A stretch of DNA of 64,000 bases from Herbiconiux oxytropis (GTDB lineage: Bacteria > Actinomycetota > Actinomycetes > Actinomycetales > Microbacteriaceae), in the NCBI RefSeq assembly GCF_024979315.1, contig NZ_JANLCK010000002.1, forward strand, positions 434,001 to 498,000. Direction: 5' to 3'. The notes under the pieces were generated by a model. That model was given only the letters and a program-made list of their open reading frames with translations. It did no database searches and was not told the origin of the DNA. The position numbers and the translations under genes were made by a program. Positions 39,097-53,234 of the stretch are shown here, piece after piece. Position 1 is the stretch's first letter; every line of letters begins with the position of its first letter.

Positions 39097-39192
39097 GAAG
39101 GACTCCGTTTCAGGGAAGGCGAGAAGGGGCACGGATGCCGCGGCGACGGCTGGGCGCGCGCCGCGGCATCCGCGAAGGGAGAGAACCTCGGC

Positions 39193-40278
39193 CTAGGAGC
39201 CCGAGTAGAACTCCATGACCTGGTCGAGGGTCAGGTCGAGCCCCGGGAAGTCGTAGCCGAGCTGGAAGTTCGCCGGCTTGTCGGCGATGCAGTACTCGGC
39301 GGCGTTCTCCTCGGTGATCTCGAGGGGCGGGAAGTACTGCTCCTTCTCGATCTCCTCGCCCTCGAGCAGCGCGACGGCCTGCTCGAGGCCCTTCGCATAG
39401 ATGGCGGGCTGGCCGAAGACCATGTTGCCGGTGAGGCCTTCGGGGGCGTACTCGGCGAGCGTGCAGGCCTCGCCGTTGTAGCCGGAGCCGCCGACGACGG
39501 GCACGAACGGGAGGCCGGCGGCCTTGAACGCCTCGGGCACGCCCTGGCCTCCGGTGAGGAAGGAGTAGACGCCGCCGACATCGGGGTTCGAGCGCAGGAT
39601 GTTGGACATCGCCTCCTGGGCGGTGGCCTCGTTCCAGCCGTTGGTGTCCTGAGCCACGACGGTGGCGCCGCCGCCCTCGAGCGTCTCGATCACGCCGGGC
39701 ATGGTGCCTTCGTTCAGCGGCACGCCCGCGAGGCCCTCGAGCACGGCGATGTTCTTGTCGTCGCCGAGGTTCTCCAGCAGCCAGTCGGCGCCGATGGTGC
39801 CGGCGTTCGCCCAGTCGGTCGAGACCACGTAGACGTCGTCGCTGTCGTAGGGGCCGCCGTTGGCGATGACCGGGATGCCCTGGGCCGTGGCCTGCGTGAT
39901 GGCGGCATCCGCACCGCTCGAGGAGGCGGGGTCGAAGAGGATGAGGTCGACGCCGTCGGCGATGAGGTTCTGCATGGCCGCGTTCTGCTGGGCGGCGTCG
40001 TTGTCGTTGGTGCGGACGATCTTGAGCTCGACCTTGTCGGCGTACTCGGGTGAGGCGGCGAGGGCCTGCAGCGATGCCAGGCCCATCTCGCGCCAGGCCT
40101 GGCCGCCGAGGGGCTGCTCGAAGCCGATCACGAACTTGCCGTCGTCTCCTCCGGCGTCGGCGGTGCCTCCTCCTTCGGCCGGCGCGCTGGTGCAGCCGGC
40201 GAGGAGTGCGAGCGAGGAGGCGGCCGCGAGAACCGCGGCGCCCTTCGCGTAACGGGATGTGCGCTGTGCTCTGTGCAT
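39193..40278 (-). CDS. Sugar ABC transporter substrate-binding lipoprotein 1
   Basis: A 361-residue periplasmic-binding-protein type I (ribose-binding-like) lipoprotein: signal peptide with lipobox LLAGC (lipidated Cys at about residue 27), then FVIGFEQPLGGQAWREMGL, QNLIADGVDLILFDPASSSG, and IPVIANGGPYDSDDVYVVSTDWANAG. AAGGGAGA precedes the ATG at 40278. Two AGCGCT operator cores lie 50-75 bp upstream. It delivers sugar to the ATPase/permease set that follows. Confidence 0.9.
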   Translation of the reverse strand: MHRAQRTSRYAKGAAVLAAASSLALLAGCTSAPAEGGGTADAGGDDGKFVIGFEQPLGGQAWREMGLASLQALAASPEYADKVELKIVRTNDNDAAQQNAAMQNLIADGVDLILFDPASSSGADAAITQATAQGIPVIANGGPYDSDDVYVVSTDWANAGTIGADWLLENLGDDKNIAVLEGLAGVPLNEGTMPGVIETLEGGGATVVAQDTNGWNEATAQEAMSNILRSNPDVGGVYSFLTGGQGVPEAFKAAGLPFVPVVGGSGYNGEACTLAEYAPEGLTGNMVFGQPAIYAKGLEQAVALLEGEEIEKEQYFPPLEITEENAAEYCIADKPANFQLGYDFPGLDLTLDQVMEFYSGS

Positions 40279-40326
40279 GATTTCTCCCTTGAAATCGAGT
40301 GGGTGTTCGGCACAGTAGCGCAAAAA

Positions 40327-40352
40327 TGGCAGCGCTACCAGTAGCGCTGCCA
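40327..40352. promoter_or_regulatory. Double LacI-type operator before binding protein 1
   Basis: TGGCAGCGCTACCA (40327-40340) and AGTAGCGCTGCCA (40340-40352) adjoin, with AGCGCT cores 12 bp apart. The whole 26-bp block is itself an inverted repeat. The same arrangement is repeated at 41602-41627. AGCGCT-centred palindromes are typical targets of LacI-family repressors. Confidence 0.75.
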
Positions 40353-40392
40353 AAATTGCGGACGATCGTGATCGTCCCGTTCTCAGGTCACA

Positions 40393-41541
40393 TCAGAGGC
40401 CGACATCCGAGGCCTTGACGAAGCCGGAGTCGACGAGTTTGGTCTGCACGTCGTCCTTCACGACCACCTCGGGGTCGAGCTCGTACGACTTCACGGTGGT
40501 GGCTCCGTTGTCGAACTCGGTGGTGGTCTCGGGCTCCTCGCCGGCCACGATCGAGGCGATCATCTCGGCCGTGCGCTCGCGCAGCACCCGGGTGTCCTTC
40601 CAGACCGTCATGGCCTGCTCACCCTTCAGGATCGCCTGCACGTTCGCCTTGTCGGCGTCCTGGCCGGTGACGATCGGCCAGTCCTGCCCGGCGGCGTAGC
40701 CTGCGCCCTTCAGTGCCGCCTCGATGCCGAGGGCGAGGCTGTCGTTGGGCGAGAGCACGACCTGCACCTTCTCATCTCCGGTGTAGAACGACGACAGGCG
40801 GTTCTCCATCTCGGCCTGCGCGTCGTCCGAACCCCAGCCGAGGATGCCGATCGAGGCCCAGTCGTCGTTCGAGGCCGGCGCCTTGCCCGAGGGCACCTCG
40901 AGCTGGCCGTTCTCCACGTAGGGCAGCAGCACGTCCCAGGCGCCCGAGAAGAAGTAGCGGGCGTTGTTGTCGTCGGGGCTGCCGGCGAAGGGCTCGAACA
41001 GGAACGGGCCCGCGCCGTCCTCGAGGCCGAGCTGGTCGACGATGTAACCGGCCTGCAGCGCCCCGACGGCCTCGTTGTCGAAGCCCGTGTGGTAGTCGAT
41101 CGCGTCGCTGCCGTTGATGAGGCGGTCGTAGGCGATGACCGTCACGTCCTGCTTCTCGGCCTCCTCGAGCACGGGGCCGAGGGTGTCGCCGTCGATGGCG
41201 GTGATGACGAGGATCTTCGCGCCTCCCGCGATCTGGTTCTGGAGCTGCGAGATCTGCTGGTCGGTCTTGTTGTCGGCGTACTGCAGGTCGGTGGTGCAGC
41301 CGGCGTCGTCGAGGATCTTCTTCAGGCCCTCGCCGTCGTTGATCCAGCGCTCGAGCGACCGCGTGGGCATCGAGATGCCGACGTTGCAGTCGACGGCCGA
41401 GGCGGCGTCGCCGGAGCCTTCGCCCGCTGACCCGCCGGTGCCGGAACCCCCCGAGCTGCAGGCCGCGAGGCCCGCCACGAGGCTGCCGGCGGCGATGAGG
41501 CCGAGAACTCCCCGGCCGAGTCTGCTGTGCTGTGATCGCAT
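40393..41541 (-). CDS. Multiple-sugar (ChvE-like) substrate-binding lipoprotein 2
   Basis: A 382-residue type I binding lipoprotein: lipobox GLAAC (about residue 26), VGISMPTRSLERWINDGEGLKKIL, LQNQIAGGAKILVITAIDGDTL, VIAYDRLINGSDAIDYHTGFDNEAVG, GSPDDNNARYFFSGAW. This is the ChvE/multiple-monosaccharide-binding pattern and differs from binding protein 1. GAAGGAG precedes the ATG. It has no ATPase or permease of its own beside it, so it probably shares the transporter encoded downstream on the same strand. A double AGCGCT operator lies 61-86 bp before the start. Confidence 0.9.
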   Translation of the reverse strand: MRSQHSRLGRGVLGLIAAGSLVAGLAACSSGGSGTGGSAGEGSGDAASAVDCNVGISMPTRSLERWINDGEGLKKILDDAGCTTDLQYADNKTDQQISQLQNQIAGGAKILVITAIDGDTLGPVLEEAEKQDVTVIAYDRLINGSDAIDYHTGFDNEAVGALQAGYIVDQLGLEDGAGPFLFEPFAGSPDDNNARYFFSGAWDVLLPYVENGQLEVPSGKAPASNDDWASIGILGWGSDDAQAEMENRLSSFYTGDEKVQVVLSPNDSLALGIEAALKGAGYAAGQDWPIVTGQDADKANVQAILKGEQAMTVWKDTRVLRERTAEMIASIVAGEEPETTTEFDNGATTVKSYELDPEVVVKDDVQTKLVDSGFVKASDVGL

Positions 41542-41601
41542 GGTGCTTCTCCTTCGAAACATGATGTTGACGAACTGCTCCAGGCGACGATACCGTGTGC
41601 A

Positions 41602-41627
41602 TGGCAGCGCTGCCAGTAGCGCTATCA
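41602..41627. promoter_or_regulatory. Double LacI-type operator in the divergent promoter region
   Basis: TGGCAGCGCTGCCA (41602-41615) and AGTAGCGCTATCA (41615-41627), cores again 12 bp apart. It lies between the divergent binding protein 2 gene and the Gfo/Idh gene and could control both. Confidence 0.75.
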
Positions 41628-41681
41628 GTCGCACTTCGCTAGTGTGATCGAATCGTCGCAACGACGCGATAAGGAGACGCA

Positions 41682-42758
41682 ATGACCCTCACACCCGATG
41701 TGGAGATCCGCAGCCGGGCGCACCGCATCGGCTGCATCGGCGCCGGCGCCATCATGGCCGACCAGCACCTCGAGGCCTACCGCCTCGGCGGGTTCCCGGT
41801 CGCCGCCATCGCCTCCCGCACCAAGGCCAACGCCCAGGCCGTGGCCGATCGCTACGGCATCGCGACCGTGCACGACACCCCCGAACAGCTCATCGCCGAT
41901 CCGTCGATCGAGATCCTCGACATCGCGTACCCGCCGGACCTGCAGCCCGCCCTCATCCGCGAGGCTCTCAAGCAGCCGCATATCAAGGCGATCCTGGCCC
42001 AGAAGCCGCTCGCGCTCAGCCTCGACGAGGCCATCGCGCTCCGCGACGAGGCGGCTGCGGCGGGCAAGCCGCTCTCGGTCAACCAGAACATGCGCTACGA
42101 CCAGTCGATCCGCTCGCTCAAGCAGCTGCTCGACGAGGGCGCGCTCGGCGAGCCCGTCTTCGCCCAGATCGACATGCACGCGGTGCCGCACTGGCAGGGC
42201 TTCCTCGAGGGCTACGACCGCCTCACCCTGTCGAACATGAGCGTGCACCATCTCGACGCGCTGCGCTACCTCTTCGGCGACCCGAGCGAGATCTCCACGG
42301 TCGTGCGCCGCGACCCGCGCACCGAGTTCGAACACGAGGACGGCATCGTCGTCTCCACACTCCGGTTCCCCGGCGACCTCCTGGCGCTGAGCGTCGAGGA
42401 TGTCTGGGGTGGCCCCCGTGAGGAGGGCTACGACGACGACTTCTTCATCAAGTGGCGCGTGGAGGGCACCGCGGGCGTGGCCAACGGCACCATCGGCTGG
42501 CCCACCGGCGACCCGTCGACCATCCGCTACGCCTCGACCATCACGACCGACGGGCAGTGGGTGTCACCGACCTGGGAGACGCACTGGTTCCCGCACGCCT
42601 TCATCGGCGTGATGGAGCAGCTGCAGCACGCCGTCTCCTCCGGAACGGACCCGCAGCTCTCGGTCGCCGACAACGTCAGGACGATGGCTCTGATCGAGGC
42701 CGGCTACCGCTCGATCGCCGAGAAGCGCCCGGTGCGGCTCGACGAGTTCACCCTCTGA
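41682..42758 (+). CDS. Gfo/Idh/MocA-family sugar dehydrogenase
   Basis: A 358-residue NAD(P)-dependent oxidoreductase: the Rossmann motif GCIGAGAIMADQH (17-29), the catalytic Lys108 in AQKPLAL (the family's EKP position, with Gln for Glu), NQNMRYDQSIRSL and HHLDALRYLFG. It would oxidise a sugar or inositol ring hydroxyl, or reduce the keto form. AAGGAG precedes the ATG. First gene of a plus-strand operon running to DUF4432; the double operator lies upstream. Confidence 0.9.
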   Translation: MTLTPDVEIRSRAHRIGCIGAGAIMADQHLEAYRLGGFPVAAIASRTKANAQAVADRYGIATVHDTPEQLIADPSIEILDIAYPPDLQPALIREALKQPHIKAILAQKPLALSLDEAIALRDEAAAAGKPLSVNQNMRYDQSIRSLKQLLDEGALGEPVFAQIDMHAVPHWQGFLEGYDRLTLSNMSVHHLDALRYLFGDPSEISTVVRRDPRTEFEHEDGIVVSTLRFPGDLLALSVEDVWGGPREEGYDDDFFIKWRVEGTAGVANGTIGWPTGDPSTIRYASTITTDGQWVSPTWETHWFPHAFIGVMEQLQHAVSSGTDPQLSVADNVRTMALIEAGYRSIAEKRPVRLDEFTL

Positions 42759-42837: not shown

Positions 42838-43752
42838 ATGATCCAGCTGGGCATCTTCACCGCCTACTACCCCTACGACCTCAAGACCACCGCCGAGAAG
42901 ATCCGCGCGCAGGGCTTCAACACGGTGCAGCTCGACCTGCACTTCAAGGACCTCGACCTGAGCGCCGGCCAGATCACCAAGGAGAAGGCCAAGCTCGTCT
43001 CCGACACCTTCCGCGACCACGACCTGCCGATCTCCGCCATCTCGGGCTACACGAACATCGTGCACCCCGACCCCGAGCACCGCGCGGCGAACGTGGCGTA
43101 CCTCAAGGAGATCATCCGCAACGCCCGCAACTTCGGCTCGAAGTACGTCATCTCCGAGTCGGGCACCTTCAACCCCGAGAGCGAGTGGGACCACGACCCG
43201 CACAACCGCTCGGAGGACGCCTACGACCAGGTGCGCACCGTGCTCGCCGAGCTCGCGCAGGAGGCCTACGACCACGGGGCCACGTTCCTGCTCGAGACCT
43301 ACGTGAACAACGTCATCGGGTCGGTCCGTGAGACCGTGCGCGTGTTCAACGACATCCGCACCCCCGGCCTCGAACTGCTGATGGACCCCACGAACTACTT
43401 CGACTCCTCGAACATCGACGACCAGGCGGGCGTGCTCAACGAGGTCTTCGACACCCTCGGCGACCGCGTGCGCATCGCCCACGCGAAGGACGTCAAGCGC
43501 GCAGGTGACGACAAGAGCGAGAAGCACGCCGACATCGGCGACGACGATGCGCTGGCCTCGCACACCTTCCGCGGCGTGGGCGAGATCGAGCTGCCGGCCG
43601 CCGGCCTCGGCTCGCTCGACTACGAGCTCTACCTGCAGCGGCTGTCGGAGCAGAACCCGAACGTGCCGCTGATCATCGAGCACCTCGATGAGTCGGACAT
43701 CCCCCGGGCCAAGCAGTTCGTGACGGATATTCTCAAGAAGTACACGATCTAG
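42838..43752 (+). CDS. Sugar isomerase/epimerase-like TIM-barrel protein
   Basis: A 304-residue AP-endonuclease-2/xylose-isomerase-like barrel. The four usual metal ligands can be assigned: Glu153 (LLETYVNN), Asp183 (LMDPTNY), His215 (IAHAKDV) and Glu281 (IIEHLDE). It probably epimerises, isomerises or dehydrates a keto-sugar made by the neighbouring dehydrogenases, as do IolE/IolI- and D-tagatose-3-epimerase-type proteins. The ATG at 42838 follows AAGGAG by 10 nt. The gap to the Gfo/Idh gene is 79 bp and slightly T-rich. Confidence 0.87.
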   Translation: MIQLGIFTAYYPYDLKTTAEKIRAQGFNTVQLDLHFKDLDLSAGQITKEKAKLVSDTFRDHDLPISAISGYTNIVHPDPEHRAANVAYLKEIIRNARNFGSKYVISESGTFNPESEWDHDPHNRSEDAYDQVRTVLAELAQEAYDHGATFLLETYVNNVIGSVRETVRVFNDIRTPGLELLMDPTNYFDSSNIDDQAGVLNEVFDTLGDRVRIAHAKDVKRAGDDKSEKHADIGDDDALASHTFRGVGEIELPAAGLGSLDYELYLQRLSEQNPNVPLIIEHLDESDIPRAKQFVTDILKKYTI

Positions 43753-43787: not shown

Positions 43788-44546
43788 GTGCAGGAGAAGG
43801 TAGCGATCATCACGGGCGCGGGCGGCGCGCTCGGCCGGGCGACGGCACTCAGGCTGGGGGCCGACGGCTTCGCCGTGGGCGTGCTCGGCCGGGCGAGCGT
43901 CGACCTGGCCGAGACGGCGGCCCAGCTGGAGGCCGAAGGGGTGCCGGTGCGGGTGCTCGAGGTCGACCTCCGCGACGCCGCGGCGATCGAGTCGGCGATC
44001 ACCGCCACCGAGGCCGACTTCGGGCCGGTCGAGGCGCTCGTGAACAACGCTGCGATCTACCCGTCGACCCCTTTCCTCGAGATCCCGCTCTCCGAGTACG
44101 ACGACGTGGTCACCGTCAACCAGCGCGGCTACTTCTACGCGGCGCAGGTGGCGGCGCGGGGCATGGTGGCGCGCGGCCGGGCCGGTCAGACGGCCGGGGC
44201 GATCGTGAACGTCGGATCGATCACCTGGAACGGCGGCTGGTCGAACCTCGCCAGCTACGTCTCCACGAAGGGCGCCGCCGTGGCGCTCACCCGGGCGCTC
44301 GCCCGCGAGCTCGGCGAGTTCGGCGTGCGAGTGAACGCGGTGGCGCCGGGCGCCTTCCCCACCAAGGCGGAGGAGATCCAGGGCGACGCGGCCGAGTACT
44401 CGGCGCACGTGATCGAGCATCAGGCGCTCAAGCGCCGGGGCACGGATGCCGAGCTGGCCGCCGTGGTCTCCTTCCTGGTCGGGCCCGACTCGTCGTTCGT
44501 CACGGGCCAGACCATCAACGTCGACGGCGGATGGGTGATGAAGTGA
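43788..44546 (+). CDS. Short-chain dehydrogenase/reductase of the sugar operon
   Basis: A 252-residue classical SDR: ITGAGGALGRA at 8-18, NNAA at 86-89, Ser144, Tyr157 and Lys161 (SYVSTKGA), and the C-terminal VDGGWVMK. GTG at 43788 follows GAGAGGGAGA. The product resembles gluconate- or sugar-dehydrogenase SDRs. The stop overlaps the GTG of the DUF4432 gene, so the two are coupled and probably act on successive intermediates. Confidence 0.88.
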   Translation: MQEKVAIITGAGGALGRATALRLGADGFAVGVLGRASVDLAETAAQLEAEGVPVRVLEVDLRDAAAIESAITATEADFGPVEALVNNAAIYPSTPFLEIPLSEYDDVVTVNQRGYFYAAQVAARGMVARGRAGQTAGAIVNVGSITWNGGWSNLASYVSTKGAAVALTRALARELGEFGVRVNAVAPGAFPTKAEEIQGDAAEYSAHVIEHQALKRRGTDAELAAVVSFLVGPDSSFVTGQTINVDGGWVMK

Positions 44547-45667
44547 ACATCTTCGGCAAGGACCTCACGCACGAGCAGCTCGCGGAGCGCACGGGCGATC
44601 TCTCGGCCGTCGCCGGCATCCGCCAGGTGGTGCTCGACAACGGGGTGGAGCGGGGCGTTCGCGCCATCGACCTCCGCACCGCGGCCGGCCTCGAGCTCGA
44701 AGTGCTCGTCGATCGGGCTTTCGACCTCGGCTCGGCCCGGTTCAAGGGCGTGCCGCTCGGCTGGCGCTCGGGCAACGGCTTCCGGCACCCAGGCCTCCAT
44801 GAGCACAATGACGAGGGCGGGCTCTCCTGGCTCCGCGCCCTCGACGGCCTCCTCGTCTCGGGCGGTCTCGACCACACGCTCTTCGGCGGCGACGTGGATG
44901 CGACGCGCTACAACTACCCGCCCAAGCAGAGCGTCAACCACGGGCTGCACGGTCGGTTGACCGCGATCCCGGCCCGGCTGCTCGAGGCGCGCGAGGTGCC
45001 GTCGGTCGACGGGGGCTCACCCGTGCTGCGCGTCGTCGGCGAGGTGATCCAGGCCACGTCGTTCGGCGAGCACCTGCGGCTCACCCGCACGATCGAGCTC
45101 GACTTCGACGGCCGCGAGATCCGCCTGCACGACGTGGTCGACAACCTCGGCTTCGAGCCCACGCCGCACATGTTCCTCTATCACATCAACTTCGGCTGGC
45201 CCTTCGTCGACGAGGGCACCGAGTTCGTGGCCCCCGTGGCCTCGCACCTGTGGGCCTCCGACTCGGCGGCCGACCAGGGCGTCTCGTACCGCACGCTTCC
45301 GGCCCCGCAGAAGGGCTTCGTGGAGCAGGTGTTCGAGCACGAGCTCGTGGCGGGCCCCGACGGCGACCACCGGGTGGCGCTCATCGCGGCCGACGGCTCG
45401 CTCGGCGTGGAGGTGAGCTGGGCCGCCTCGGGCATGCCGCACTTCTTCGAGTGGCAGAACCTCCGAAGCGGCCAGTACGCGATCGGCCTCGAGCCCTCCA
45501 CCCACCATGTGGGCGGCGATGGCGCGGCGCGCGAGGACGGCTCGATGACCTTCCTCGAGCACGGCGAGAGCCGCGAGTACCGCACGCGCATCCGCGTGCT
45601 CACGGGCGCCTCCGAGACCGACGCCGTGCGCGAGGCCATCCGGGCCATCGGATCGCAGCCGGAGTAG
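44543..45667 (+). CDS. DUF4432 (aldose-epimerase-like) protein
   Basis: A 374-residue beta-sandwich protein with LRTAAGLELEVLVDRAFDLGSARFKG, GLDHTLFGGDVDATRYNYPP, VNHGLHGRLTAIPARLL, and HMFLYHINFGWPFVDEG. These are DUF4432 features; the family belongs to the galactose-mutarotase superfamily and occurs in sugar-degradation operons. A mutarotase or sugar-epimerase role is inferred. The GTG at 44543 overlaps the SDR stop by 4 bp. It is the last gene before the next operator and promoter. Confidence 0.82.
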   Translation: MNIFGKDLTHEQLAERTGDLSAVAGIRQVVLDNGVERGVRAIDLRTAAGLELEVLVDRAFDLGSARFKGVPLGWRSGNGFRHPGLHEHNDEGGLSWLRALDGLLVSGGLDHTLFGGDVDATRYNYPPKQSVNHGLHGRLTAIPARLLEAREVPSVDGGSPVLRVVGEVIQATSFGEHLRLTRTIELDFDGREIRLHDVVDNLGFEPTPHMFLYHINFGWPFVDEGTEFVAPVASHLWASDSAADQGVSYRTLPAPQKGFVEQVFEHELVAGPDGDHRVALIAADGSLGVEVSWAASGMPHFFEWQNLRSGQYAIGLEPSTHHVGGDGAAREDGSMTFLEHGESREYRTRIRVLTGASETDAVREAIRAIGSQPE

Positions 45668-45777: not shown

Positions 45778-47013
45778 ATGAGTGATTCCAGCCCCACCGA
45801 CGCTCCCGAGGTGCTCTCCGGCATCCGCGTGCTCGACTGCTCGATCGCCATGGCAGGGCCCTTCGCTGCGCAGCGCCTCGGCGACCTCGGCGCCGACGTC
45901 ATCAAGGTCGAGCCGACCACGGGCGAGTGGCAGCGCCACGCGGCCGCCGGCGGGGCCACGGGCAACCGGATCAACGTCTCGTTCCTCTCGCTCAACCGCA
46001 ACAAGCGCTCGATCGGCGTCGACCTCAAGTCGGCCGAGGGCAAGGAGATCCTCTACGAGCTCGTCAAGACCTCGGACGTCTTCCTGCAGAACTACCGCCC
46101 CGGAGTCGCGGCCCGTCTCGGCGTCGACTACGAGACGCTGCGCGCGCTCAACCCCTCGCTCGTCTACGTGTCGATCTCCGGCTACGGGGAGGACGGTCCC
46201 TACCGCAACCGTCCCGGGCAGGACCTGCTGCTGCAGGCGATGAGCGGCGCCATGCTCTCGGCCGGCAGCCACGGGCATCCGCCCACCCCCGCCGGGCAGT
46301 ACCTGGTCGATGCCGTCACCGCCTCGACCGCGTTCGAGGGCGTGCTCGCCGCGCTGTTCCACCGCGAGCGCACCGGTCAGGGGCAGCTCGTCTCGGTCAA
46401 CATGCTCGACGCCATCACGACGCTGCAGATGCAGGAGCTCTCGGTGTTCACCGTCGGCGGCGTGCCCCAGAAGCGCGGTGCAGAGCCGCACGCGCACGTC
46501 TACATCCGGGCGCCCTACGGCACCTTCTCCACCACCGACGGCTACATCGCGCTCGCCATGCCCGAGCTGCACGCGCTCGGCGAGGTCATCGGCGATCCCT
46601 ACTTCGACGGCCTCGACACCGAGACCGACAGCTGGAAGCACCGCGACGAGATTTTCTCGCGCACGGCCGCGCGGCTCGCCACGGAGTCGTCGGCGCACTG
46701 GCTGGCGGCGTTCTCCGAGGCAGGCATCTGGGCTGGGCCCGTGTACGACTACCAGGCGCTCGTCGACGACGAGCAGATCAAGCACAACGGCACCTTCATC
46801 GAGTACGAGCACCCCACCGAGGGGCTCGTGAAGACCCCCGGGTTCCCGTACAAGCTGTCGGAGACCCCCGCGCGCATCGACCGGGGGGCGCCGCTCACCG
46901 GGGAGCACACGCGGGAGATCCTCGAGGAGCTCGGGTTCGGCTCGCGCGCCGATGCGCTCGTCGAGGCGGGGGTCGTGGCGGCGGAGCCTGCGGTGATCGA
47001 GGAGCAGGTGTGA
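45778..47013 (+). CDS. CaiB/BaiF (family III) CoA-transferase
   Basis: A 411-residue CoA-transferase: VLDCSIAMAGPFAAQRLGDLGADVIKVE near the N-terminus, LNRNKRSIGVDLK, and the catalytic Asp149 in RPGQDLLLQAMSG, preceded by SISGYGEDGPY. Family III enzymes move CoA between organic acids through aspartyl-CoA intermediates. It opens a tight operon with a solute-binding-fold protein and an enoyl-CoA hydratase homologue, so it probably activates a sugar-derived or branched acid for a hydratase step. The acceptor acid is unknown. Confidence 0.88.
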   Translation: MSDSSPTDAPEVLSGIRVLDCSIAMAGPFAAQRLGDLGADVIKVEPTTGEWQRHAAAGGATGNRINVSFLSLNRNKRSIGVDLKSAEGKEILYELVKTSDVFLQNYRPGVAARLGVDYETLRALNPSLVYVSISGYGEDGPYRNRPGQDLLLQAMSGAMLSAGSHGHPPTPAGQYLVDAVTASTAFEGVLAALFHRERTGQGQLVSVNMLDAITTLQMQELSVFTVGGVPQKRGAEPHAHVYIRAPYGTFSTTDGYIALAMPELHALGEVIGDPYFDGLDTETDSWKHRDEIFSRTAARLATESSAHWLAAFSEAGIWAGPVYDYQALVDDEQIKHNGTFIEYEHPTEGLVKTPGFPYKLSETPARIDRGAPLTGEHTREILEELGFGSRADALVEAGVVAAEPAVIEEQV

Positions 47014-48191
47014 CCGGCTTCCGCGGCATCACCTGGGACCACCCGCGCGGCCGCAATGCGCTCGAGGCGGCCGCGCGCTCGGCCGCCTCCGGATCCCTCG
47101 ACATCTCCTGGAGCGCCCACTCCCTCGAGCACTTCGAGTCTCACCCCATCGACGACCTCGCCGCGAACTACGACCTCATCGTGCTCGACCACCCGCACCT
47201 CGGCGAGGCTCTCGAGAAGCACTCGCTGCAGCCGCTGGATGCCGTGGTCGGCGCCGCGCGCATCGAACGCTGGTCGCGCGAATCCGTCGGCCCGTCGTTC
47301 GACTCCTACTCGGCCGACGGCTACCAGTGGGCGGTGCCGTTGGACGCCGCCACGCAGGTCGCGGTGCACAGCACGGCGCTGCTCCCCGCCGCCGACGTGC
47401 CCGCCACGTGGTCGGAGGTCGAGGCGCTCGCGCTCTCGGGTGACGCGCCCGTGGCGCTCTCGCTCGCCGGGCCGCACGCCTTCCTCAGCTTCGCCTCGAT
47501 CGCCGTGGCGCTCGGCGAGGAGCCAGGGCGGCACCCGGGCGAGCGGCTGATCTCGGCCGAGACCGGGGCGCAGGTGCTCGAGCTCATGCGCTCGATCGCG
47601 TCGAGGGCGCCCGAAGGGGCGGATGCGCAGAACCCGATCGCGCTGCTCGAGCGGCTGTCGGGGGCGGGCACCGGGGCGGGCGGTGCATCCGGCGGCTCCG
47701 GCGCATCCGGAGACATCGCCTACATCCCGCTCGTCTACGGCTACGTCACCTACTCCTCACCCACCGTGCGGTTCGCGGATGCGCCCACGGGTGCTCCGGG
47801 CGGCCGTCGCGGTTCCACCATCGGCGGCACCGGGCTCGCGGTGAGCGCCCGCGCCGAGGTGACGCCCGCGCTCATCGACCACATCGACTGGCTGATGTCG
47901 GGCGAGGCGCAGCGCCGCTTCATCCCCCAGCACGACGGCCAGCCCTCGGCGCGTGCGGCGTGGGAGGACGACGAGGTCAACGCCGCGAGCCACGACTTCT
48001 ACCGGGCGACGCTCCGCACGATCGACGAGTCGTGGGTGCGGCCGCGCTACTCGGGTTACATCCCGTTCCAGTCGCTCGCCTCCGCCCTCGTCCGCGACGT
48101 GCTGGCGGAGGAGATCTCGATCGGGTCCGGCCTCTCCGCCCTCCAGAAGGCGTTCGACGTCTCGAACTCCTCCGTCACCGAAAGGGTCTGA
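47010..48191 (+). CDS. Cytosolic solute-binding-protein-fold protein
   Basis: A 393-residue protein resembling MalE-type extracellular solute-binding proteins, starting directly with FRGITWDHPRGRNALEAAA and containing YDLIVLDHPHLGEAL, QWAVPLDAATQVAVHSTALLP, and the late LMSGEAQRRFIPQHDGQPSARAAW. There is no signal peptide, lipobox or membrane helix, and the GTG start is fixed by a 4-bp overlap with the CoA-transferase stop. It therefore should stay in the cytosol, next to two CoA enzymes. A Gly/Ser/Ala insert (about 216-230) interrupts the middle. Ligand binding or a subunit role for the CoA-transferase is possible. Confidence 0.8.
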   Translation: MTGFRGITWDHPRGRNALEAAARSAASGSLDISWSAHSLEHFESHPIDDLAANYDLIVLDHPHLGEALEKHSLQPLDAVVGAARIERWSRESVGPSFDSYSADGYQWAVPLDAATQVAVHSTALLPAADVPATWSEVEALALSGDAPVALSLAGPHAFLSFASIAVALGEEPGRHPGERLISAETGAQVLELMRSIASRAPEGADAQNPIALLERLSGAGTGAGGASGGSGASGDIAYIPLVYGYVTYSSPTVRFADAPTGAPGGRRGSTIGGTGLAVSARAEVTPALIDHIDWLMSGEAQRRFIPQHDGQPSARAAWEDDEVNAASHDFYRATLRTIDESWVRPRYSGYIPFQSLASALVRDVLAEEISIGSGLSALQKAFDVSNSSVTERV

Positions 48192-48192
48192 C

Positions 48193-49044
48193 ATGACCGA
48201 CTCCACCACCGCATCCGCTGCAGCCGCCGGCCTTCCCTCCGCCGACCTTCCCTCGACCGGCCTTCCCTCCATCGGCACCGACGAGATCCTGCTCGAGCTC
48301 GACGCGCAGGTGCTCACCATCACCTTCAACCGGCCGCAGAAGCTCAACTCCGTCACGCAGGAGATGTCGGATGCGCTCGTGGTGGCCTCCGAGTGGGCGA
48401 ACGAGTCGGATGCCGTGCGTGCGGTCGTGCTCACCGGTGCGGGTGAGCGCGCCTTCTGCGCCGGCTCCGACATCCGGCAGCTCGACACGTATGCAACGCC
48501 GTGGGACTTCCGGAACCGCGGCGACTACTGCGACGCCCTGCGGCTGCTGCGGAAGCCCGTCATCGCGGCCGTCAACGGCTACGCGTTCGGCGGTGGGCTC
48601 GAGACGGCGCTGACCTGCGACATCCGCCTCGCGTCGACCACGGCGTCGTTCGCGGCACCCGAGATCAAGCTCGGCTGGATCGGCGGAGGAGGCATGAGCA
48701 CGTTCCTCGGCCACTCGATCGGAGCGAGCAACGCGGCGCTGATGCTCATGACGGGCGACCCGATCGACGCCTCCCGGGCGCTCGCGTGGGGGCTCGTCTC
48801 CGAGCTGGTGGAGCCGGGATCGCTCGTCGCCCGGGCGCAGGAGCTCGCCCGCACGATCGCCTCCCGCCCGCCGATCGCGGCCGAGACCGCGAAGGCCAAC
48901 CTCCGCGCGGCCTACAACCTGCCTCAGGATGCGGCGATCGCCTACGAGCGCGACCTCCAGACGGTCACGTTCGCCACGGAGGACGCCGCGGAGGGCCGAG
49001 CCGCCTTCGCCGAGAAGCGCCAGGGCCTCTTCCACCGCCGCTGA
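48193..49044 (+). CDS. Enoyl-CoA hydratase/isomerase-family protein
   Basis: A 283-residue crotonase-fold protein: TITFNRPQKLNSVTQEM, the first oxyanion segment AFCAGSDIRQLD, the second VNGYAFGGGLETALTCDIRLAS, then APEIKLGWIGGGGMSTFLG, where crotonases place a catalytic Glu. It would hydrate, dehydrate or isomerise a CoA thioester supplied by the CoA-transferase two genes upstream. AAAGGG precedes the ATG at 48193. The N-terminal 30 residues include imperfect LPSxxLPS repeats. Its last codons form the first unit of a tandem duplication. Confidence 0.87.
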   Translation: MTDSTTASAAAAGLPSADLPSTGLPSIGTDEILLELDAQVLTITFNRPQKLNSVTQEMSDALVVASEWANESDAVRAVVLTGAGERAFCAGSDIRQLDTYATPWDFRNRGDYCDALRLLRKPVIAAVNGYAFGGGLETALTCDIRLASTTASFAAPEIKLGWIGGGGMSTFLGHSIGASNAALMLMTGDPIDASRALAWGLVSELVEPGSLVARAQELARTIASRPPIAAETAKANLRAAYNLPQDAAIAYERDLQTVTFATEDAAEGRAAFAEKRQGLFHRR

Positions 49045-49151: not shown

Positions 49152-49206
49152 GACTTGACAGAACCTGCGCGAATAACCGCCGACTTGGCACATCTTGTGT
49201 CAAGTG
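49152..49206 (+). repeat. 55-bp nested palindrome, copy 3
   Basis: It begins GACTTGACAGAACC and ends with the conserved ACTTGGCACA TCT TGTGTCAAGT hairpin. It lies downstream of the enoyl-CoA hydratase gene, in its orientation, and 28 bp before the FAH-family gene start. Confidence 0.85.
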
Positions 49207-49234: not shown

Positions 49235-50473
49235 ATGACCACCACCACCGCCTGGGCCGGCGACGCCGCCGCCGCACTCCCCGCCGACGGCTACGCCGGC
49301 ACCCTCGTCGGGCGCGTCTGGAACCCGGCGGTCGCGGGCCCGAGCCCCGTCCTCATCCGCGAGGACGGCGTCTTCGACCTCAGCGCGACCTTCGCCACCG
49401 TGAGCGCCCTCGCCGAGGAGGCCCACCCGGCCGCCGCTGCTCGCGCCGCCGCCGTGGGAGCCGCCCGGCTCGGTGGCTTCGACGAGCTCTACGCGAACAC
49501 CGCCGCCGCCACGTCGGAGCCCGGCCGCGACCCCGACCGCCCGTGGCTCCTCGCCCCCGTCGACCTGCAGACCCTCAAGGCCGCCGGCGTCACCTTCGCG
49601 GTCTCCATGATCGAGCGTGTCATCGAGGAGCGGGTCAAGGGCGACGCGGATGCGGCGGCGCAGATGCGCGACAGCATCCTGGCCGAGATCGGCACCGACC
49701 TGCGCGAGGTCAAGCCCGGATCCGAGGCCGCGATCGCCCTCAAGCAGTACCTCGTGGGCGAGGGCCTCTGGAGCCAGTACCTCGAGGTCGGCATCGGTCC
49801 CGACGCCGAGATCTTCACGAAGGGCCCGACCCTCTCGGCGATGGGCACCGCCACCCAGGTCGGCGTTCTCTCGACCTCGCACTGGAACAACCCCGAGCCC
49901 GAGGTCGCCCTCCTCGTGAGCTCGACCGGCCGCATCGTGGGCGCCACCCTCGGCAACGACGTGAACCTCCGCGACGTGGAGGGGCGCTCGGCGCTCCTGC
50001 TGCCCAAGGCGAAGGACAACAACGCCTCCTGCGCACTCGGCCCGTTCATCCGTCTCTTCGACGAGGAGTCCGAGGCATCCGGGGCCCCCGGTGACACCCC
50101 CTTCACCCTCGACACCGTCCGCGCCATGACGGTCACGCTCCGGATCGACGGCACCGACGGCTTCCACCTCGACGGCAGCTCCGAGATGTCGCAGATCAGC
50201 CGCGACCCGATCGACCTCGTGGCCCAGCTCGTCGGCCCCCACCACCAGTACCCCGACGGCGCCCTGCTCATGCTCGGCACCATGTTCGCCCCCATCGTCG
50301 ACCGTGACGAGCCCGACCGCGGCTTCACCCATCACACCGGCGACATCGTGCGGATCTCGTCGGCCGAACTGGGTAGTCTGGTGAACCAGGTCGAACAGAG
50401 CGAGAGGTGCGAGCCGTGGGTATTCGGAATCGGCTCGCTCATGAAGAACCTGGCGAGCCGGAACCTGCTGTGA
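49235..50473 (+). CDS. Fumarylacetoacetate-hydrolase-family protein, AraD1-like
   Basis: A 412-residue FAH-fold enzyme with FTKGPTLSAMGTATQVGVL, WNNPEPEVALLVSSTGRIVGATLGNDVNLRDVEGRSALLLPKAKDNNASCALGP split by metal-site acids, and GALLMLGTMFAPIVDRDEPDRGFTHHTGDIV. The long form (about 390-410 residues) resembles L-2-keto-3-deoxyarabonate dehydratase-type proteins of oxidative pentose routes. This fits the semialdehyde dehydrogenase gene two positions downstream. GAGGAGA precedes the ATG. The stop overlaps the LacI start (GTGA). Confidence 0.82.
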   Translation: MTTTTAWAGDAAAALPADGYAGTLVGRVWNPAVAGPSPVLIREDGVFDLSATFATVSALAEEAHPAAAARAAAVGAARLGGFDELYANTAAATSEPGRDPDRPWLLAPVDLQTLKAAGVTFAVSMIERVIEERVKGDADAAAQMRDSILAEIGTDLREVKPGSEAAIALKQYLVGEGLWSQYLEVGIGPDAEIFTKGPTLSAMGTATQVGVLSTSHWNNPEPEVALLVSSTGRIVGATLGNDVNLRDVEGRSALLLPKAKDNNASCALGPFIRLFDEESEASGAPGDTPFTLDTVRAMTVTLRIDGTDGFHLDGSSEMSQISRDPIDLVAQLVGPHHQYPDGALLMLGTMFAPIVDRDEPDRGFTHHTGDIVRISSAELGSLVNQVEQSERCEPWVFGIGSLMKNLASRNLL

Positions 50474-51510
50474 TCCAGCCGCGGATGGCGCCGTCGAGGC
50501 GTTCGACCAACACGGTCACGCTCGAAGACGTGGCGCGCCACGCGGGGGTCTCGCCGCAGACCGTCTCGCGTTCCATCCGCACCCCCGAACTCGTCTCCGA
50601 GTTCACCCTCGAACGCGTGCGCTCCTCCATCTCCGAGACCGGCTACGTGCCCAACCTCGCCGCGTCGAACCTCGCGTCGAACCGCAGCATGACGGTGGCA
50701 GCCATCATCCCCGCCATCTCGGCCTCGGTCTTCGCCGATGCGCTGCACGGGCTCGAGGAGGTGCTCGCCACCGAGGGCTACCAGCTCTTCATCGGCTCGA
50801 CCGGCTACCGGCCGGCCCACGAGGAGGCGCTCGTGCGGGCCTTCCTCGGCCGCCGCCCCGACGGCATCTTCATCGTCGGTACGAGCCACTCGCCGAACAC
50901 CGACCACCTGCTCCGCGAGTCGAAGGTTCCCGTGGTGGAGGCCTGGGACCTCAGCGACGACCCCGTCGACAGCGTGGTGGGCTTCTCCAACCGGGAGGCC
51001 ATCCGCGCGGTCGTGGAGTTCGCCGTCGAGCGCGGCTACTCCCACCCCACGTTCGCGGGATCGCTGCAGCGCGGCGACTTCCGTGCCGCCGCCCGCCGGG
51101 CGAGCTTCGAGGAGTCGGTGGCGGCGCTGCTGCCCGGCGAACCCGTGCGGGTCGTCGACTCCGGCACCTCCACGGTCGACTACGAGACCGGCCGGCGGCT
51201 GCTGGATGAGACGCTCCGTGCGCATCCGGAGACCGACGTGCTCATGTTCGCCTCCGACGTCTTCGCCGCGGGGGCCCTGCTGGAGTGCGCGCGCCGGGGC
51301 CTCCGGGTGCCCGAGGACATCGCGATCACGGGCTTCGGCGACTTCGAGATCGGCCGCCACCTCGTGCCGACCCTCACCACGGTGGCCGTGCCCAACCGGC
51401 AGATCGGCACCGTGGCGGGCGAACTGCTGCTCGCCCGCATGACCCACCGCTCGGCCGACACCCAGGCCATCGACCTCGGCTTCTCCGTGGTGGCGCGCGA
51501 GAGCGCGTAG
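50470..51510 (+). CDS. LacI-family transcriptional regulator of the sugar island
   Basis: A 346-residue repressor: helix-turn-helix at about 16-36 (TLEDVARHAGVSPQTVSRSI) with the hinge region NLAASNLASNRSMT, then a periplasmic-binding-like effector domain (IIPAISASVFADALHGLEE, RRPDGIFIVGTSHS, ITGFGDFEIGRHLVP). The GTG at 50470 overlaps the FAH-family stop; ATG 50485 is an alternative. It is the only LacI protein in the window, so it is the natural owner of the AGCGCT operators at 40327, 41602, 45722 and 51749. Its effector is probably the imported sugar or a pathway intermediate. Confidence 0.88.
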   Translation: MIQPRMAPSRRSTNTVTLEDVARHAGVSPQTVSRSIRTPELVSEFTLERVRSSISETGYVPNLAASNLASNRSMTVAAIIPAISASVFADALHGLEEVLATEGYQLFIGSTGYRPAHEEALVRAFLGRRPDGIFIVGTSHSPNTDHLLRESKVPVVEAWDLSDDPVDSVVGFSNREAIRAVVEFAVERGYSHPTFAGSLQRGDFRAAARRASFEESVAALLPGEPVRVVDSGTSTVDYETGRRLLDETLRAHPETDVLMFASDVFAAGALLECARRGLRVPEDIAITGFGDFEIGRHLVPTLTTVAVPNRQIGTVAGELLLARMTHRSADTQAIDLGFSVVARESA

Positions 51511-51643: not shown

Positions 51644-51698
51644 GACTTGACACAAGATGCGTGAATAACCGCCCACTTGGCACAACGTGTGTCAAGTC
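51644..51698 (+). repeat. 55-bp nested palindrome, copy 4
   Basis: It begins GACTTGACACAAGATGCG and ends GTGTGTCAAGTC. Its right arm has two substitutions from consensus. It follows the LacI gene in the same orientation and ends 21 bp before the dehydrogenase start. An in-frame GTG within it (51687) is not used, because GAAGGA supports 51720. Confidence 0.82.
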
Positions 51699-51719
51699 AC
51701 CCACATCGAAGGACACGAC

Positions 51720-53234
51720 ATGCTGACCACCACAGATCCGCGCACCGGTGTTAGCGCTGCCACCGACCTCAAGCCGACGACCCCCGAGGGCGTCGACACG
51801 ATCGCCCGCTGGGCCGAGGGCGCGGCGCACGAGCTGCAGAGCCGCGGCCGTGAGTTCCGCGCGCAGCTCCTCGACGCCATGGCCGCCGCCGTGCTCGAGT
51901 CGCGCGACGAGCTCGTCACCACCGCCGACGCCGAGACCGGCCTCGGCATCGCCCGCCTCACCGGCGAGTCCGGCCGCAGCGCCTTCCAGTTCTCGCTGTT
52001 CGCCGAGGCCGTGCGCGAGGGCTCGTTCGTCGAGGCCGCCATCGACCACGCCGGGGACACCCCGCTCGGCCCCGGCCCCGACGTCCGCCGCATGCTCGTC
52101 TCCATCGGCCCCGTCGCCGTGTTCGGCTCGAGCAACTTCCCGTTCGCCTTCTCGGTGCTCGGCGGCGACGTCGCCTCGGCCATCGCGGCCGGCTCGCCCG
52201 TGGTCGTGAAGGCGCACGGATCGCATCCGCTCACCTCGAAGCTCTCCTACGAGGTGCTGCAGCGCGCCGCGGATGCCGTGGGCGCTCCCCGAGGAACCTT
52301 CGGCATCGTCTACGGCCAGGAGGCGGGCGTCGAGCTCGTCAAGCACCCCGCCATCAAGGCGGCGGGCTTCACCGGATCGCTCGGCGCGGCCTCGGCCCTG
52401 CAGAAGGCCATCGACACCCGGCCGGACCCCATCCCCTTCTTCGGCGAGCTCTCGAGCATCAACCCGCTCGTGGTGTCGCCCGGGGCGGCGGCCGCCCGAG
52501 GCGACGAGATCGCCTCGGGGCTCTTCACCTCCTACACCGGATCGGCCGGCCAGCTCTGCACGAAGCCCGGCATCGCCTTCGTGCCGGCGGATGCCACGGG
52601 GCAGGCGATCGTCGACGCCCTCGCCGACCTCACCAGGGTCGCTCCCGCGCAGGTGCTGCTGAACGGGCGCATCCGCGGTTCGTTCGACGACATCGAGGGG
52701 CGCCTCACCGCGGCCGGGGCGTCGCAGATCGCGCGCGGAGTGGATGCTCCGGCAGACGCCCCCGAGGGCTTCAGCGTGGCACCGACCCTGCTCGAGACCC
52801 AGGCCTCGACGCTCGACGAGTCGATCGCCGAGGAGTGCTTCGGTCCGCTCATCGTGGTGGCACGCTACAGCTCGCTCGACGAGGTGCGTGAGGCGTTCGG
52901 CCGCATCCCGCAGTCGCTCACGGCGACGCTGCACGTGGAGGACGCGGAGGCCGACGTGGTCGCCTCCCTCACGCCGACCCTCTCGGCGAACGCCGGACGC
53001 GTCGTGTTCAACGGCTACCCCACGGGCGTGCGCGTCACGTGGGCGCAGCAGCACGGCGGGCCGTGGCCCTCGACGAACTCGCAGCACACCTCGGTGGGCG
53101 TCACGGCGGTGCGGCGGTTCCTGCGGCCGATCGCGTGGCAGAACGCGCCGGAGGCGGCGCTGCCGGAGGAGCTCCGCGACGCGTACACGGGCATCCCGCG
53201 CCGCGTCGACGGCGTGCTGCACCTCGCGGGCTGA
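51720..53234 (+). CDS. 2-oxoglutarate-semialdehyde-type aldehyde dehydrogenase
   Basis: A 504-residue NAD(P)-dependent aldehyde dehydrogenase with catalytic Cys280 (GSAGQLCTKPG) and general-base Glu243 (FFGELSSINP). FTGSLGAASALQKAI and the FGSSNFPFAFSVLGGD motif match ketoglutarate semialdehyde (2,5-dioxovalerate) dehydrogenases. It would produce 2-oxoglutarate as the last step of an oxidative sugar-acid pathway. GAAGGA lies before ATG 51720. An AGCGCT operator covers codons 11-14, so repression by blocking elongation or an internal binding site is likely. Confidence 0.9.
   Translation: MLTTTDPRTGVSAATDLKPTTPEGVDTIARWAEGAAHELQSRGREFRAQLLDAMAAAVLESRDELVTTADAETGLGIARLTGESGRSAFQFSLFAEAVREGSFVEAAIDHAGDTPLGPGPDVRRMLVSIGPVAVFGSSNFPFAFSVLGGDVASAIAAGSPVVVKAHGSHPLTSKLSYEVLQRAADAVGAPRGTFGIVYGQEAGVELVKHPAIKAAGFTGSLGAASALQKAIDTRPDPIPFFGELSSINPLVVSPGAAAARGDEIASGLFTSYTGSAGQLCTKPGIAFVPADATGQAIVDALADLTRVAPAQVLLNGRIRGSFDDIEGRLTAAGASQIARGVDAPADAPEGFSVAPTLLETQASTLDESIAEECFGPLIVVARYSSLDEVREAFGRIPQSLTATLHVEDAEADVVASLTPTLSANAGRVVFNGYPTGVRVTWAQQHGGPWPSTNSQHTSVGVTAVRRFLRPIAWQNAPEAALPEELRDAYTGIPRRVDGVLHLAG
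51749..51762. promoter_or_regulatory. LacI-type operator inside the dehydrogenase gene
   Basis: TGTTAGCGCTGCCA is identical to the site before the CoA-transferase and lies 29-42 bp downstream of the ATG. It encodes VSAA, in a poorly conserved N-terminal stretch. Confidence 0.65.

Follow-up and report, generated by a model that had tools for sequence, protein, structure and literature searches.

An unexported MalE-fold protein paired with a family III CoA-transferase at bacterial sugar loci, and its possible part in CoA-cycled dehydration of sugar acids

Our analysis of a 64,000-nt stretch of the Herbiconiux oxytropis genome (hereafter the window) revealed a complete MalE-type binding protein, SBPc, which begins at the mature N-terminus and carries no export signal, and that this protein works in the cytosol with a CoA-transferase is well supported. 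In our preferred reading, to which we assign a probability of roughly 0.45, SBPc serves a single branch of the family III CoA-transferases as its dedicated partner and the pair, together with a hydratase, dehydrates a sugar-derived hydroxy acid by means of a CoA cycle. The SBPc gene (47010–48191, forward strand) has a GTG start inside the stop of a CoA-transferase family III gene of the CaiB/BaiF type (45778–47013, forward strand), with a 4-nt overlap, and a gene for a crotonase-family enoyl-CoA hydratase/dehydratase (48193–49044, forward strand) comes next. The arrangement proposed in a preliminary description of this DNA, an unexported binding-fold gene coupled to a CoA-transferase and followed by a crotonase, was thus borne out. 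Among the full-text literature matches listed, which leave most subscription journals outside their coverage, there was no description of an SBPc-type protein paired with a CoA-transferase.

Absence of export and pairing with a CoA-transferase

Structure-based comparison predicted an intact full MalE-type fold for SBPc from mature residue 1, and Pfam matches to binding-protein families were found in 27/31 and 25/31 members. SBPc shares this fold and profile similarity with MalE-type solute-binding proteins (PF01547/PF13416; 1eu8 trehalose/maltose-binding protein, LpqY and SmoF), but differs from them in having no signal peptide, in forming a separate clade, in seldom lying beside permeases and in being coupled to a CoA-transferase. 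An N-terminal 11-residue mean hydrophobicity of 2.2 was reached by 0/92 SBPc members compared to 20/22 secreted controls, in a hydropathy test only (no SignalP) that applied the same most-hydrophobic-start rule to both groups; the lowest control value, 1.67, was reached by 3/92 members. In a separate lipobox comparison, control starts were chosen for hydrophobicity and SBPc starts were the nearest ones. A lipobox match was seen in 20/22 secreted controls, and the crude pattern also occurred in 10 SBPc members, all of which were read as an in-domain VAC motif after a TWDHPRG block. Permease matches were found at 1/59 short SBPc loci (1.5 kb flanks) compared to 21/22 control loci, and the annotation of two Bacteroidota loci showed no ABC permease over the 17 kb inspected. 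An export or transport role was rejected on this signal, permease and Bacteroidota evidence. The cytosolic reuse of a transport fold with a CoA-transferase, as previously suggested, is therefore strongly supported by the hydropathy and permease counts and by retention of the pair in several phyla, and the contrary expectation, that homologues would carry signal peptides and sit beside permeases, was not what we observed.

The SBPc relatives form a clade of their own that occurs in Actinomycetota, Pseudomonadota, Bacteroidota and Chloroflexota. A CoA-transferase was present in 79/92 SBPc loci at the first extent, a set from which repeat fetches of one gene and pieces of <330 residues had been removed and in which close relatives remain (including the near-identical Sinorhizobium plasmids L043 and L049), and 8 of the 13 remaining loci gained one once widened; control binding-protein loci had none (0/22, 1.5 kb flanks). 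Within 8 kb of SBPc, a CoA-transferase was found in 56/61 long loci, which include 20 stretches selected for the initial absence of a CoA-transferase or hydratase and leave out L010 (a non-member), L043 and L124 (near-identical plasmids). The five long loci without one comprise two near contig ends (L162 and L164) and three that are not (L060, L159 and L161). Some genome-search tallies are lower bounds, with ≤4 candidates scored per genome (9 or 18 in other searches). The CoA-transferase lay upstream of SBPc at 53 junctions (37 overlapping by 1–4 nt) and downstream at 17, counted without L043, and most junctions overlap or span few bases whichever the order, the downstream gaps being biased small by use of the nearest possible start codon. 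Distances between SBPc proteins and between their CoA-transferases were correlated (r 0.895, 50 loci), which partly reflects shared ancestry. Taken together, we regard it as almost certain that the two proteins are partners in one function, and probable that they form a physical complex. A second unexported binding-protein family, SBPx, was found in two 16 kb stretches (L213 and L214) without a CoA-transferase match, so a sugar locus can use an unexported binding protein even where it lacks a CoA-transferase.

The CoA-transferases linked to SBPc constitute one clade (104 sequences, compared to 25 with flanks of 1.5 kb lacking SBPc; FastTree 0.93, SH-aLRT 99.8, UFBoot 99). Two residues, Gln148 and Trp318, were private to this clade, being found in 104/104 linked and 0/25 unlinked sequences drawn by different sampling. 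In the reverse check of 33 CoA-transferases, all seven with Gln148 were SBPc-linked (in L004 at a distance of 2.3–2.5 kb) and 0/26 others had SBPc in 1.5 kb flanks. In the aligned solved CoA-transferases, which differ from the protein studied here in that the latter is linked to an SBPc partner, these positions hold Tyr and Pro, respectively. The closest solved relatives are succinate-hydroxymethylglutarate CoA-transferase and formyl-CoA transferase, and the nucleophilic Asp aligned from the solved enzymes is kept in 101/101 linked and 25/25 unlinked sequences. The window protein, with candidate catalytic Asp178, belongs to family III by its PF02515 match (E 7e-108) and this conserved Asp, and CoA transfer activity is predicted. 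With two diagnostic residues in its partner, SBPc lends itself to testing whether a transport fold has become a metabolic subunit.

The CoA hydratase and the sugar-type neighbourhood

A CoA hydratase, crotonase or MaoC, was also present in 50/61 long loci, with a crotonase in 27 and MaoC in 25; six long loci with a CoA-transferase had no hydratase in range. L041, the second SBPc locus of the H. oxytropis genome, has MaoC in place of the crotonase. As the hydratase type is exchanged while the pair stays, the constant core is SBPc and the CoA-transferase. In the proposed check of conservation across genomes the pair held up, whereas the exact trio is not universal; this outcome does not refute the earlier reading, and a strict three-gene module was rejected as the unit. 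In the window crotonase (PF00378, E 4.6e-59), Glu137 and Glu157 align with two Glu of solved enoyl-CoA hydratases, which we take to be the catalytic Glu144 and Glu164 of the rat enzyme; both were kept in 51/51 aligned matches (54 loci with a match; repeat fetches included).

Downstream on the forward strand lies an FAH-family protein (49235–50473; PF01557, E 1.6e-7), a homologue by sequence similarity of 2-keto-3-deoxy-pentonate dehydratase for which this activity is predicted; the available part of one report describes D-type 2-keto-3-deoxy-pentonate dehydratases as annotated as FAH family (PMC7374468). An aldehyde dehydrogenase (51687–53234, forward; PF00171, E 9e-39) is a candidate 2-oxoglutarate semialdehyde dehydrogenase from its context only, and the NCBIfam matches listed for it (25 of 36) all fell far under their cut-offs. 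Between these is a LacI-family regulator (50407–51510, forward; PF00356 and PF13377), the best NCBIfam match of which, gluconate-type GntR, was below cut-off; its start overlaps the FAH gene and the true start is probably further in. A repeat at 49183 was set aside as a pathway operator, its core occurring in 29 exact copies genome-wide.

Upstream, also on the forward strand, are an aldose 1-epimerase-like DUF4432 protein (44531–45667; PF14486, E 3e-87), which is a conserved neighbour in 14/61 long loci, an SDR oxidoreductase that is a candidate sugar dehydrogenase (43788–44546; PF13561), a xylose isomerase-like TIM-barrel protein (42838–43752; PF01261, E 1e-26; in 11/61 long loci) and a Gfo/Idh/MocA oxidoreductase (41682–42758, scanned from 41709; PF01408 and PF02894; PDB 5uhw, E 6e-27). 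The reverse strand encodes a divergent sugar ABC importer (35364–41682) with an ATPase, a pair of permeases and two binding proteins that are exported, of which one is ChvE-like; with this importer in the window, SBPc is not needed for uptake. The importer genes, the FAH match and the neighbours would allow several pentoses as substrate. Divergent SBPc loci carry fucose/rhamnose-type genes.

The window operon contains no IlvD/EDD sugar-acid dehydratase, the single ILVD_EDD match of the genome being on another contig, and among SBPc loci examined for an IlvD/EDD relative only L174 had one. Like Weimberg-type pentose oxidation, the locus has an FAH-family 2-keto-3-deoxy-pentonate dehydratase homologue and an aldehyde dehydrogenase that may lead towards 2-oxoglutarate, but the CoA-transferase, SBPc and crotonase occupy the place of the IlvD/EDD aldonate dehydratase. 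A homologue of the enolase-family dehydratases was found in 19/61 long loci; CoA-dependent dehydration would be redundant at such loci, where this step may be a different one. A sugar-acid dehydratase could also come from elsewhere in the H. oxytropis genome, which has five MR_MLE_C (enolase superfamily) matches there.

A possible CoA-cycled dehydration

In L-carnitine metabolism, the family III CoA-transferase CaiB and the crotonase CaiD form a CoA-cycled dehydratase/hydratase of a 3-hydroxy acid. The preliminary description held that nothing in known routes of sugar oxidation needs such genes, which may stand for sugar oxidation itself, but the carnitine system uses the same kind of CoA-transferase and crotonase gene pair for dehydration of a 3-hydroxy acid, a type of reaction that is predicted here. 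The two systems differ in that, to our knowledge, CaiB/CaiD has no binding-protein partner, in the sugar-type neighbours and importer at the present locus, and in specificity, as the CoA-transferase scored 147.1 bits compared to a cut-off of 413 for the carnitine model NF002914 and is not carnitine-specific.

The reaction, substrate and physical complex that we infer would operate as follows. A sugar imported by the ABC system would be oxidized to an acid, a step suggested by the SDR, Gfo/Idh and DUF4432 neighbours. The acid would be bound by SBPc and presented to the CoA-transferase, whose conserved Asp would mediate the transfer of CoA to the carboxylate of the acid. The crotonase, or MaoC at other loci, would then remove water from C2–C3, consistent with its conserved catalytic Glu, and the enol would give a 2-keto-3-deoxy acyl-CoA. 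By analogy with CaiB/CaiD, the transferase would hand the CoA to the next acid and free the 2-keto-3-deoxy acid. In the window, the FAH-family enzyme could then act on 2-keto-3-deoxy-pentonate and the aldehyde dehydrogenase complete its conversion to 2-oxoglutarate. CoA esters of 4- and 5-hydroxy acids tend to lactonize, which is a hurdle for the proposed intermediate; an additional function of SBPc could be to prevent the thioester's hydroxyls from closing a lactone ring.

That an acid is activated, held and dehydrated ahead of the FAH enzyme is plausible. The chances that a sugar acid is what this system dehydrates appear evenly balanced, and conversion of a pentonate to 2-oxoglutarate in H. 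oxytropis is slightly less assured. More tentatively, the binding-protein fold may be an obligate CoA-transferase subunit, a cytosolic clamshell that picks the acid, blocks thioester lactonization and passes the acid to the hydratase; such two-part sugar-acid CoA-transferases would be widespread and undescribed, and would provide an iron–sulphur-free, CoA-cycled route. The pairing of SBPc suggests that sugar oxidation has a CoA-dependent branch, an undescribed form of intracellular sugar breakdown.

Alternative roles for SBPc and its partner

SBPc could instead be an enzyme evolved from the binding-protein fold, much as type II folds of this kind gave rise to MqnA and other enzymes; beside the CoA-transferase it might work on the sugar acid or its CoA ester as, for example, a lactonase, an epimerase or a dehydratase. 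Nine polar residues (W9, R13, D55, D60, D112, Q301, Q311, W318 and R344) are invariant in 31/31 members, and relatives 27–50 % identical to the window protein share Asp, Arg, Trp and Gln residues without exception and His residues nearly so; the complete fold is predicted to be intact, and no recognised lactonase was found among the operon genes scanned. However, such strong conservation equally fits a single fixed ligand, Pfam and NCBIfam searches of the 31 members at E 0.01 gave no match to a family of enzymes, and 50/50 structural neighbours among the matches listed were binding proteins. We therefore consider a catalytic SBPc unlikely.

Rather less probable is that the PF02515 protein epimerizes or racemizes a sugar-acyl-CoA at C2, in the manner of alpha-methylacyl-CoA racemase, with the crotonase dehydrating afterwards and SBPc an accessory. 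The family does take in racemases, which match the window protein at E 6e-32 to 2e-31, but its best solved matches are transferases (9br7, E 5e-63; 10uh, E 4e-56), and Gln was found in 104/104 linked sequences at what is presumably the position of the racemase catalytic His. A non-catalytic role for SBPc as a cytosolic sensor, signalling an intermediate to a regulator or importer, would accord with the LacI or IclR regulators near 45/61 long loci; the regulator family varies among loci while the CoA-transferase pairing stays constant, and the short junctions counted involve the CoA-transferase, which leaves this role quite improbable. Although SBPc belongs with the sugar-binding proteins by Pfam family and by fold, and a membrane protein of an ABC, TRAP or RhaT transporter lies within 8 kb in 33/61 long loci, an ordinary importer component with an unusual or lost export signal is very improbable given the absence of any signal-like N-terminus, the rarity of permeases in the short loci, the two Bacteroidota loci and the window's own importer with its exported binding proteins.

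In public annotation, SBPc-type proteins are mostly named extracellular solute-binding protein or ABC transporter substrate-binding protein, and in one case 'putative integral membrane protein'; their recognition as unexported enzyme partners would correct the annotation in many bacteria. Sinorhizobium and Azospirillum are among the hosts, which live in soil, in the sea or in association with plants.

Pairing of SBPc with a CoA-transferase

Our study found that the MalE-type binding-fold protein of the window and its relatives (SBPc) belong with a CoA-transferase. The family III CoA-transferase (45778-47013, PF02515), SBPc (47010-48191, PF13416/PF01547, weak but above the Pfam cut-off) and a crotonase (48193-49044, PF00378) lie at the place previously described, all on the plus strand, and the coupling of the first two genes was borne out, with SBPc starting at a GTG within the CoA-transferase stop (a GTGA overlap, with AGGAG ahead). 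No NCBIfam model matched SBPc at E 0.001. Pfam placed genes for Gfo/Idh/MocA, TIM-barrel, SDR and DUF4432 proteins 5' of the trio, and 3' of it those for a FAH-family protein, a LacI regulator and an aldehyde dehydrogenase. The nearest named relative found was a Herbiconiux MAG (Microbacteriaceae, Actinomycetota), whose operon proteins are 92-99 % identical to those of the window.

A CoA-transferase gene was present within 1.5 kb of SBPc in 77 of 92 loci and somewhere in the fetched stretch in 79, compared to none of 22 control loci of secreted binding proteins. Twelve of the 13 exceptions were re-fetched more widely, the thirteenth (L060) being already long, and eight gained a CoA-transferase (L156, L157, L158, L160, L163, L165, L166 and L167). 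None was found, even in the long or widened stretch, at L060, L159, L161, L162 and L164; two of these loci (L162 and L164) lie close to a contig end. Within 8 kb of SBPc, the 61 long loci, 20 of them fetched on purpose because a CoA-transferase or hydratase had been missing, held a CoA-transferase in 56 cases, a crotonase in 27, MaoC in 25, a CoA-transferase plus either hydratase in 50, a transporter membrane protein in 33, FAH in 14 and a regulator in 45. In 53 loci the CoA-transferase gene preceded SBPc, with an overlap of 1-4 nt in 37 of them and a distance of no more than 30 nt in 51; it followed SBPc in 17, of which 16 had a possible start codon ≤6 nt away. As the junctions are tight in both gene orders, they argue for matched synthesis of the pair and not merely an inherited gene order.

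By sequence comparison, the partner CoA-transferases are a branch of their own. The 104 linked sequences, of which 83 lie adjacent to SBPc and 21 nearby, all split from 25 unlinked ones (no SBPc in 1.5 kb flanks; drawn from the genomes of 16 relatives and from that of the window) with support of 0.93 (FastTree), 99.8 (SH-aLRT) and 99 (UFBoot); since both groups came from our own sampling, wider sampling could blur this split. Gln148 and Trp318 occurred in 104/104 linked and 0/25 unlinked sequences, and Asp178 in both groups (101/101, three linked ones being left uncounted, and 25/25). In a reverse check of 33 CoA-transferases, Gln148 was found in seven, all SBPc-linked, and no SBPc was found in the flanks of the remaining 26. 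The window genome's second Gln148 CoA-transferase (L004) has its SBPc link at 2.3-2.5 kb, visible in the longer stretch L041. SBPc and CoA-transferase distances correlated at 0.895 across 50 loci, shared ancestry being part of this value.

A probably cytosolic family

SBPc looks cytosolic from its sequence. The preliminary description of a binding protein without an export signal was upheld across the family, as an 11-residue N-terminal hydropathy mean of 2.2 was reached by 0/92 members versus 20/22 controls, taking the most hydrophobic possible start for both, with ranges overlapping at the low end (3/92 SBPc reach 1.67, the lowest control). A crude lipobox pattern matched 20/22 controls and ten SBPc members, which we read as a conserved in-domain VAC motif. 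An alternative start codon in frame, 20-60 codons ahead of the SBPc start, was present in only 9/92 members, and a permease matched in 1/59 SBPc loci (1.5 kb flanks) versus 21/22 controls. In the predicted model the fold is complete, beginning at mature residue 1, and the closest solved chain by profile was the trehalose/maltose-binding protein 1eu8 (E 1.5e-19). A divergent importer in the window (35364-41682) encodes two permeases, an ATPase and two different exported binding proteins (39193-41682), one ChvE-like; nothing in NCBIfam matched the second binding-protein gene at E 1e-30.

SBPc makes up a separate family. When 30 members were placed in a tree together with secreted controls and sequences of SBPx, a second unexported family, SBPc formed a single group, with support of 0.95 on one side and 1.0 on the other. 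Across 92 aligned members, conservation rounded to 1.0 at W9, R13, D55, D60, G94, D112, Q311, W318 and R344 and at glycines G272, G273, G275 and G310, and was 0.95-0.99 at H11, W34, H61, Y100, Y245 and Q301. At E 1e-3, at least 50 of 199 Microbacteriaceae genomes matched, 35 with E values no higher than 1.3e-28 and 15 in the range 4.8e-8 to 7.6e-4, the latter taken for ordinary binding proteins. At E 1e-12, SBPc was found in at least 3/396 genomes of the window's phylum (its own counted), at least 18/398 of the phylum and 17/101 of the order of a Rhizobiaceae genome (itself counted in both), and 1/201 of the phylum of a Caldilineaceae genome (Chloroflexota). Among plasmid records, 145 of 72,556 matched at E 1e-5 over ≥80 % of the query, including Bacteroidota plasmids of Rufibacter and Persicobacter.

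Variation in gene neighbourhood

Neighbourhoods vary around a constant SBPc and CoA-transferase pair. The window-type locus occurs, whole or in part, on plasmids of Sinorhizobium, Rhizobium, Variovorax, Pseudosulfitobacter and Streptomyces. The window's own genome carries a second SBPc module (L041 3228-11463, contig C23) with FAH, LacI, CoA-transferase, MFS transporter and aldehyde dehydrogenase genes, and MaoC where the window has a crotonase. Here the SBPc and FAH ORFs overlap by 4 nt, the CoA-transferase lies 2.3-2.5 kb off, and the FAH relative is 55 % identical to that of the window, with no Pfam match at E 1e-6; a Streptomyces ITFR-6 locus resembles this module. Divergent SBPc members neighbour lactonase-like amidohydrolase, enolase and rhamnose-mutarotase genes. 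On two Bacteroidota plasmids a RhaT symporter adjoins SBPc, SBPx, two CoA-transferases, Gfo/Idh and MaoC, with no annotated ABC permease in the 17 kb covered, and a Chloroflexota locus matched SBPc, SBPx, Gfo/Idh, CoA-transferase and MaoC.

SBPx (FGPFE motif) is without an apparent signal peptide and was seen in sugar-catabolism loci (L126 1423-2610, L127 11661-12788, L128 11442-12674, L212 3432-4535, L213 7840-8913 and L214 7083-8135). Some SBPx loci also hold SBPc and CoA-transferases; neither was found in the L213 and L214 stretches. A 37 % identical relative occurs in the archaeon Halostagnicola.

Candidate CoA-cycled dehydration

CaiB and CaiD perform a CoA-cycled dehydration, and the likely reaction of the SBPc locus is similar. 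The window operon lacks an IlvD/EDD gene, the sole match in the genome lying elsewhere, and a CaiB/CaiD-like dehydration of a sugar-derived acid would fill this gap, replacing the IlvD/EDD step; SBPc may select or shield the acid. In alignments, the crotonase retains both Glu positions and the CoA-transferase its Asp. Five enolase-superfamily matches lie elsewhere in the window's genome. Weak points of this proposal are that the thioester may close to a lactone, that 19/61 long loci hold enolase genes, that SBPx occurred in two stretches where no CoA-transferase matched, and that, among the NCBIfam matches listed for the aldehyde dehydrogenase, none came near its cut-off. The component proteins are each of a known kind, and full-text literature searches found no description of their fixed SBPc and CoA-transferase union; should SBPc prove catalytic or an obligate subunit, this would be more than a variation on a known CoA cycle.

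The repeat ACTTGACACAAGATGTGCCAAGT has six copies in the window (7551, 23771, 49183, 51675, 55855 and 55949; one with 2 mismatches), and its 19-nt core has 29 exact copies genome-wide. The GTG that opens the aldehyde dehydrogenase ORF at 51687 lies under one of these copies, so the true start of this gene is probably further in.
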